A stretch of 64,000 bases of DNA from Byssovorax sp. (GTDB lineage Bacteria > Myxococcota_A > Polyangia > Polyangiales > Polyangiaceae): positions 1-64,000 of the forward strand of contig JANYGI010000047.1 of the NCBI GenBank assembly GCA_025362495.1. The letters are read 5' to 3'. Numbering within the stretch: position 1 is the first letter of the stretch; each line of letters opens with the position of its first letter. The translations under genes were made by a program, and so were the position numbers. Under the pieces are notes generated by a model. That model was not told the DNA's origin and ran no database searches. It saw only the letters and a program-made list of their open reading frames with translations. Of this stretch, positions 37,160 through 38,946 are shown piece by piece.

Positions 37160-37801
37160 GTGGAACAGACGATCGGCGTCTTCGGCGAAGAGATGCTCCT
37201 CTGGATGTGCGTGCTCCGGCACTCGCCGCAGCGGCCACCGGCGGATCACGTGCACAAACAGGCGAATTTCCTGCTGGACGAGCTCAAAGCGTCCAAGGCA
37301 GCGGCGGCCCTCCCGGTGCAGTCGACCGACGACGGGATGTTCGTGATCGCGGCGATCTTCGACGAGTGGGCGATGAGCCTGCCCGATCTCCGCCCCATCT
37401 GGAGCAGCCACCCGCTCCAGGCGACACGGTGGATGACGAACAACGCCGGCGTCGAGGTCTTCACCCGGCTCGACCGCGTCAAGCAAGGTCCGAAGACGGT
37501 GCTCGCGACGTACGTGACGGTCCTCGGCCTCGGCTTCCTCGGGCGCTATGGCCTGCCCGGCGTCACGCGCGAGCAGCTCTATCTGCTGCGCCGCGAGCTC
37601 GGGTTGCAGCTCGGCATCGACGCCGATCGCGACTGGAAGGGCGGCGCGCTCCAGCAGAGCCGGCCCGATCAAGGCCCCGCGCCGTTCGTGCCGAAGGATC
37701 CCTGGCATCGATCGCTGCTGTTCGGGCGCGTGCTGGCGATCTTCACCCTCGTGGCCGGCTTCGCGGTCCTCGCCGGAGTCCTCGTGGCGAACCTCAAATG
37801 A
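37160..37801 (+). CDS. TssL/DotU-like protein (type VI secretion membrane complex family)
   Basis: A 213-aa DotU-like protein, GTG start at 37160. Family marks are [11 protein letters not shown] (the A-x-x-D-E centre), a W-x(4)-H-P-L-Q segment, [10 protein letters not shown] and [12 protein letters not shown] (the G-F-x-G-R-Y motif), and a single C-terminal membrane span at about 192-212. In type VI secretion and type IV Dot/Icm systems such proteins pair with TssM/IcmF in the inner membrane. Its ATG-coupled partner here is a shortened IcmF. No peptidoglycan-binding extension is present. No other tss gene is in the window, so a full secretion system is not shown. Confidence 0.85.
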
Positions 37802-38946
37802 GCGTCTTTCACTACGAGATCGCCAGCGTCCACGCCGCGGTCGCGCGCGCGTTCCCGGGCCAGGGCATCTATGCGATCCCCTGGTATCTGGTCATCGGCG
37901 ATCCGGGCTCGGGCCGCTCGACGGCGCTCCACGCGATGAACCTGACCTGGAGCCAGGGCGACGGCCCGCTCCAGATTGGCATTCCGCAGCAGCAGTGTAC
38001 CTACTGGCTGCCACGAGAGGCCGTGTTCATCGAGCCCGAAGGCGCCGTCCTCGGGCCGAGCCGCAACCCGGATCTGCTCAAGAACCTGGGCGAAGAGCTG
38101 CGCAAGGCCCGCCCGCGCGAGCACCTCGACGGCATCCTGCTGGTGATCAACGTCGCGGCGTTCATCGATCTGGAAGAGGCGGCGCTGGAGTCGTACGCCA
38201 ACACCCTGCGACGCTACCTGGCCGAGGTGTCGGAGGCGCTCTACACCGACGTCCCCGTCTACGTGGTGGTGACGCGCTACGACACGCTCTGGGGCTTCGC
38301 CGAGGTGTTCCAGTGGGGCGTCGACCGCAAGAACGAGGAGCCCTGGGGCTTCACGCTCCCTCTCGATACCGAGCCTGCGAAGGCGTCGCCGCGGATCAAG
38401 GAAGAGCTGATTGGCCTGAACGCCCGGCTCGAGGCCTTCTGTCTGGCCAAGCTCTCTTCGGACGACGCGCCCGAGCAGCGGATGCGCGGATTCCAGCACC
38501 TGGCCGAGGTGCGGACGTTCATGGAGAAGCTGACTGTCGTGCTCGGGACGATCTCCCAGGCCAACTCGTTCGAGCGCGCGCCGTGGATCCGCGCGCTGGC
38601 CCTCGGGAGCGCCGTGCCGGGCAACGGTGACAAGCTGCGCGCGGGAATGGCCCGCTTCGCCAACATGGGCTTGATGCAGGCCCAGGCGATCCCCGGAGCC
38701 TCGCAGCGGCCGGGCGGGCTGCCCATTCATGCGTACATGAACCGGGTCATCTTGCCGGAGAGGGATATCGTCCCTCTGCGGGTGCGCTGGCGCGATGACA
38801 AGCTCGTGCTGGCCTGCTTCGTCGTGGGAGCGCTGCTGTGGGTTTCAGGGCTGGTCACCGCGGTGATTTTCACGGCGATGGGTGGGCCGGCGCCCGTAGG
38901 GGCGACCAGCGCGGCGCCCGCGGTGACGGCGCCGGCGAAACGGTAG
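37798..38946 (+). CDS. Truncated TssM/IcmF-like protein (GTPase-like domain only)
   Basis: A 382-aa protein corresponding to the cytoplasmic GTPase-like domain of IcmF, whose full length is usually above 1000 aa. It lacks the first two spans and the whole periplasmic part. Residues 25-42 read IYAIPWYLVIGDPGSGRST, the typical lead-in and P-loop, but the P-loop Lys is Arg40. The D-T-A-G element is replaced by E-P-E-G (79-82). The (N/T)-K-x-D position is T-R-Y-D (159-162), followed by GFAEVFQWG and EEPWGFTLPL as in IcmF. One span lies near 335-360. Loss of these residues suggests weak or no GTP hydrolysis. It overlaps the DotU gene (ATGA). Confidence 0.85.
   Translation: MSVFHYEIASVHAAVARAFPGQGIYAIPWYLVIGDPGSGRSTALHAMNLTWSQGDGPLQIGIPQQQCTYWLPREAVFIEPEGAVLGPSRNPDLLKNLGEELRKARPREHLDGILLVINVAAFIDLEEAALESYANTLRRYLAEVSEALYTDVPVYVVVTRYDTLWGFAEVFQWGVDRKNEEPWGFTLPLDTEPAKASPRIKEELIGLNARLEAFCLAKLSSDDAPEQRMRGFQHLAEVRTFMEKLTVVLGTISQANSFERAPWIRALALGSAVPGNGDKLRAGMARFANMGLMQAQAIPGASQRPGGLPIHAYMNRVILPERDIVPLRVRWRDDKLVLACFVVGALLWVSGLVTAVIFTAMGGPAPVGATSAAPAVTAPAKR

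Follow-up and report, generated by a model that had tools for sequence, protein, structure and literature searches.

The window (the whole 64,000-nucleotide stretch of DNA that was analysed) carries a DotU/TssL gene followed by a gene for an IcmF/TssM-like protein that comprises only a cytoplasmic GTPase-like domain and one membrane span. In our judgement, this mini pair is a reduced IcmF-DotU inner-membrane module and not a relic. The clade-wide retention of such a pair far from the genes of the type VI secretion system (T6SS), which TssL and TssM anchor in the inner membrane, suggests either a second, unstudied job or a regulator for the T6SS machinery. In our first-choice reading, to which we give a probability of about 40%, the pair would serve as the cytosolic docking half in a further TssLM-type complex, completed by an orphan TssM encoded elsewhere in the genome.

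A short TssM coupled to its own TssL

The features of the locus are as follows.

35670..36950, minus strand: enolase gene (eno), divergent neighbour and syntenic marker outside the module
37160..37801, plus strand: DotU/TssL of the mini locus, 213 aa, cytoplasmic domain and C-terminal anchor (Pfam DotU, 1.7e-21)
37730..37786, plus strand: predicted C-terminal transmembrane anchor of this TssL, residues 191-209 (hydropathy 2.74)
37798..38946, plus strand: short IcmF/TssM-like protein, 382 aa (Pfam IcmF-related_N, PF14331, 1.1e-47, above cut-off)
37897..37923, plus strand: altered P-loop GDPGSGRST (Lys to Arg, residue 40)
38032..38043, plus strand: altered G3 motif, E-P-E-G for D-T-A-G, residues 79-82
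38272..38283, plus strand: altered G4-like motif, TRYD for TKxD, residues 159-162
38803..38859, plus strand: single predicted span of the short TssM, residues 336-354, equivalent to TssM span 3 (hydropathy 2.41)

The mini tssL gene starts with GTG, a start supported by the conservation of the N-terminus (IGVFGE and variants) in 25 orthologues. Its stop codon overlaps the start of the short tssM by ATGA, which, together with the two Pfam matches, agrees with the translational coupling of a DotU/TssL to a short IcmF proposed in a preliminary description of this DNA. By its domain, its fold, and its C-terminal anchor, the first protein belongs to DotU. Its AF2 model (pLDDT 83.8) matches the solved TssL cytoplasmic domains 3u66, 6y4r, and 4v3i (TMt 0.69-0.84), and a helix (182-212) covers the anchor region. 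These two features are shared with short-form TssL (C-tail-anchored DotU), as is the lack of a peptidoglycan-binding part. However, the scores of the mini TssL fall under the NCBIfam IV_VI_DotU and TssL_short cut-offs and, unlike known short-form TssL, it forms a divergent group of its own.

The second protein resembles TssM (VI_IcmF) in that the third span comes after a cytoplasmic GTPase-like domain, and also in its coupling to a DotU/TssL gene. In contrast, it is devoid of the N-terminal TM hairpin, according to both hydropathy and the model, and hence of the three-span arrangement. It is also devoid of the periplasmic PF06761, helical, and C2-like domains and of the TssJ-binding end; its loss of GTPase motifs is conserved, and its gene lies outside any tss cluster. 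The NCBIfam VI_IcmF profile is matched over positions 105-447 of 1168 only, with 175.5 bits for an equivalog cut-off of 388.15, and no Pfam match was found in it to the periplasmic domains PF06761, PF21070, and PF06744. It is thus not a full-length VI_IcmF, and both the trimming of the IcmF to a GTPase-like domain plus one span and the absence of its TssJ-binding half had been correctly described. In the AF2 model (pLDDT 80.4), the domain begins near residue 20, a helix (335-360) stands at the span position, and the other hydrophobic stretch (112-130) is modelled as a strand and a short helix of the GTPase core. The solved structures that best match this model are P-loop GTPases, although the scores are weak (E 1e-4 to 1e-3), and a sequence search of solved structures with the protein gave no match. 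A short Pro/Ala-rich tail follows the span, and a C-terminal span is predicted in all 29 orthologues.

The nucleotide-binding motifs that characterize TssM (P-loop Lys, DxxG, and TKxD) are not retained as a set. The degenerate site reported earlier, with an Arg P-loop and E-P-E-G, is present in the window, but its two parts differ in generality. The P-loop Lys is replaced by Arg in 25 of the 29 orthologues and kept in four (genus g68 and G117), whereas the Asp of DTAG is replaced by Glu (Glu79) in all 29. The Lys of TKxD is likewise lost in 29/29, and Asp162 is invariant. The two long IcmF paralogues of this genome have TKID or TKAD as G4 motif, and the medium and ordinary long IcmFs examined in the clade and its relatives have a Lys P-loop and DTAG throughout. 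The exceptions are very divergent IcmFs of 1441-1626 aa and the 629-aa protein of locus L029, in which the Lys is kept and a DTAG match is absent. Judged from its motifs, the mini TssM is apparently GTPase-dead (a putative pseudo-GTPase). A degenerate P-loop is in itself no novelty, since IcmFs without Walker A are already known; indeed, P. aeruginosa IcmF3 has no detectable Walker A motif (PMC4589678). This likeness has its limits, as IcmF3 is reported to be part of the H3-T6SS and to lack the IcmF-related domain (PMC4589678). Unlike the mini TssM, it is not described as a protein that stands alone, is limited to the GTPase domain, and has a DotU of its own.

The genes near the pair encode eno, Usp, NUDIX, and amidohydrolase proteins, among others. 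No type VI family was found among the nearest ones, as first described, and they do not form a cluster of several tss genes. Searches for defence families, Rfam elements, sigma-70 promoters, and terminators gave nothing noteworthy. Further along, positions 57042-61544 encode a DsbA-like protein and two beta-propeller-like proteins, with about 18 kb of other genes between them and the mini TssM. In several genera (L037, L040, and L099-L101), orthologues of these genes immediately follow the mini TssM gene.

Distribution and descent of the mini pair

A search among relatives found the same short TssM in six other genera, always divergent from eno. With a profile search of 108 family genomes, the mini pair was found in 30 genomes of 11 genera, soil bacteria related to Sorangium and Polyangium. 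The mini TssM proteins score 417-640 bits and any other IcmF at most 176. Outside the carriers, the pair was found in none of 241 genomes drawn from the class. A single-sequence scan of the genome contigs returned no matches; an alignment-based scan gave 26 named loci, with Sorangium cellulosum, Polyangium fumosum, and Minicystis rosea among the named records. In the carrier genomes, DotU precedes the mini TssM and eno adjoins. Equally short IcmFs beside DotU, which the preliminary description had suggested looking for in other myxobacteria, are therefore found in these 11 genera, and the active-site changes given above are of the same kind in all of them. No published description of this short form was found in the open-licence literature.

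An rpoB tree was built from 61 genomes (frames selected by BLAST). Its 18 carriers form one clade, with an SH-aLRT of 98, and none of the genomes sampled from the 11 genera lacks the pair, not even the bins of 4-5 Mb. The simplest reading of this confinement to one clade and constant presence is that the pair arose a single time and has been retained since. No relic of it was seen at the eno loci of eight non-carrier genomes. The mini TssM is very divergent, with a long branch in the IcmF tree, and the mean distances within the clade are 0.80 and 0.65 for the mini pair vs. 0.60 and 0.29 for the T6SS paralogues.

A short protein with degenerate motifs, isolated from tss genes, could be taken for a decaying relic or a recent truncation of a T6SS locus. 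This is very improbable, and we regard it as refuted by the orthologues. The frames are intact in the window, as first reported, and in 29 orthologues of nearly equal length (348-385 aa for the complete copies); pairwise dN/dS values of 0.03-0.46 indicate purifying selection; and both the locus and the substitutions are conserved. A full-length IcmF at this locus in close relatives would have pointed to a recent truncation, but these carry the same short form beside eno.

In one genome of about 12.49 Mb (G123, locus L115), fragments of a second, apparently degraded mini TssM lie about 30 kb from the intact copy. A contig of a "Desulfarculus" MAG (L257) was discarded as a carrier because it is probably chimeric or misbinned: its eno-TssL-TssM block is 90% identical to that of the myxobacterial locus L244, and the homology starts at the eno end, the remainder looking unrelated. 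Another truncated form of IcmF, with frames of 629-683 aa, was observed in another family of this order (L029 in G055, also G289, G276, and G041). In L029, the P-loop reads GLPQSGKS, there is no DTAG match, and no DotU lies within the 4 kb of the locus.

T6SS genes and an orphan TssM in the carrier genomes

A tss cluster elsewhere in the genome, the search for which had been proposed at the outset, is found on contig 211. The first 20 kb of this contig encode TssA, TagF, TssM, TssL, TssK, TssJ, ClpV, and FHA, and this TssM has 1269 aa with IcmF_C. Some members of the clade additionally have a separate T6SS-like locus, in which DotU and TssK lie near a very divergent IcmF of 1441-1626 aa (L225 in G013, L226 in G124, and L227 in G097). 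The genome of the window also encodes a TssM paralogue outside its T6SS cluster, preceded by a small protein.

Contig 61:90187-93153 (15187-18153 of locus L043), minus strand: orphan TssM paralogue, 988 aa
L043 18246-18902, minus strand: small protein upstream of the orphan TssM, 218 aa (sub-threshold DUF6278 match)

This orphan TssM has PF14331, PF06761, intact GTPase motifs, an N-terminal membrane segment, and a stalk. In this genome, it lacks IcmF_helical, IcmF_C, and the TssJ-binding C-terminus, and its locus contains no DotU. An orphan IcmF, about 970-1020 aa long, occurs in all 30 carriers (29 clear cases, and G084 by a contig-edge fragment), and a DotU was never found at these loci across the clade. 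Among the 78 non-carriers, it was seen in genus g28 only (two genomes), where it branches elsewhere in the IcmF tree and the small partner protein is absent. The orphan TssM is sister to the T6SS TssM of the clade itself (support 94), which makes it a lineage duplicate that lost the TssJ-binding end. The small protein directly upstream is acidic and is not a DotU, with a core of about 190-230 aa and a weak DUF6278 match. It is linked to the orphan TssM in nearly all fetched loci of the clade (orthologues in L077, L078, L080, L083-L088, L090, L091, and L093-L096) and was not found at L079.

By the presence of TssK, a T6SS is nearly universal among the carriers (28/30) and has a scattered occurrence among the other family genomes (31/78), a comparison in which Fisher values overstate the case because the carriers are a single clade. 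The remaining two carriers, G066 and G126, have the pair and the orphan, and no TssK, TssL, or TssM of a T6SS was found in these bins, which are 86-89% complete. The view that the pair was repurposed and not broken has stood in its second part, the form being conserved. Its first part stays tentative, as 28 carriers also have a T6SS.

A proposed split complex and its alternatives

In the reading that we prefer, the mini TssL and the pseudo-GTPase mini TssM would assemble into a heteromer anchored in the membrane, by the association known for TssL and TssM. Such a heteromer could not span the envelope, since the stalk is absent, and it would probably act as a scaffold instead of hydrolysing nucleotide, since the GTPase motifs have decayed. 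It may be the DotU-bearing docking half for the TssJ-less orphan TssM, which would supply intact GTPase motifs, an N-terminal membrane segment, and a stalk, and has no DotU of its own. The two loci would jointly encode a second TssLM-type complex, which would operate alongside the cell's T6SS. This choice is based on complementarity (DotU without stalk, stalk without DotU), on a shared node of origin, and on shared retention, although the mapping of pair and orphan to the same single node means that their co-occurrence counts as one event, not 30. The partial distance correlation of the mini pair is 0.62 with the orphan TssM vs. 0.42 with the T6SS TssM, but a known TssM-TssL pair scores 0.22, so that the test is under-powered and has little weight. 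The true partner of the orphan TssM could also be its operon neighbour instead of the mini pair. A fuller version of the model, which we put forward as rather unlikely, is a non-injecting TssLM-type envelope complex from two loci, in which the mini TssM and TssL would join the TssJ-less TssM duplicate and the novel small partner around an asymmetric, active/inactive GTPase core.

Docking would be the natural function to keep. Indeed, the cytoplasmic loop of TssM (EAEC 82-360) binds TssG and recruits TssFG, and TssK-TssL and TssK-TssM contacts were reported (PMC4604203). The mini TssM corresponds to this TssG-binding loop region plus span 3, and the pair would retain only those cytosolic surfaces with which TssM and TssL touch the baseplate; a search for baseplate-contacting TssL residues found none. 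The same facts, and the near-universal T6SS of the carriers, also speak for a direct modulator of the T6SS, which would dock, store, or block baseplates, or join the canonical TssJLM as hydrolysis-dead subunits. We consider such a role possible but doubtful, in view of the two carriers in which no T6SS genes were found and of the lack of linkage to T6SS genes in any mini-pair locus read.

In line with the repurposing idea of the preliminary description, the pair may otherwise be a T6SS-independent inner-membrane complex, that is, a DotU-IcmF scaffold used in another envelope process with no secretion role. It stands alone beside the housekeeping gene eno and has diverged further within the clade than have the T6SS paralogues. 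Moreover, an IcmF-DotU pair acting outside T6SS has a precedent in the Legionella Dot/Icm (type IVB) system, where the two proteins are stabilisers (cited in PMC2660368). However, the Legionella IcmF is large (973 positions in the NCBIfam IcmF_IVB model, which the mini TssM matches weakly, with 32 bits). In addition, all carriers have other IcmF proteins, 28/30 have a T6SS, and no constant non-T6SS partner gene besides eno is linked to the mini-pair loci across genomes. On balance, we hold this explanation to be unlikely and place it third, after the direct modulator.

Returning to the split complex, the orphan TssJ-less TssM, which lay outside the view of the preliminary description, is the most plausible partner of the mini pair. 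The role of the TssM cytoplasmic domain and of its nucleotide site in type VI secretion is disputed, as the site is essential in Agrobacterium, dispensable in Edwardsiella, and missing from some IcmFs (PMC4589678). The function of that domain is isolated in a natural protein that consists of it and a span only, has decayed GTPase motifs, and is kept clade-wide with its own TssL. Finally, since the clade has cultured members (Sorangium, Polyangium, and Minicystis), the function of the mini pair is testable.
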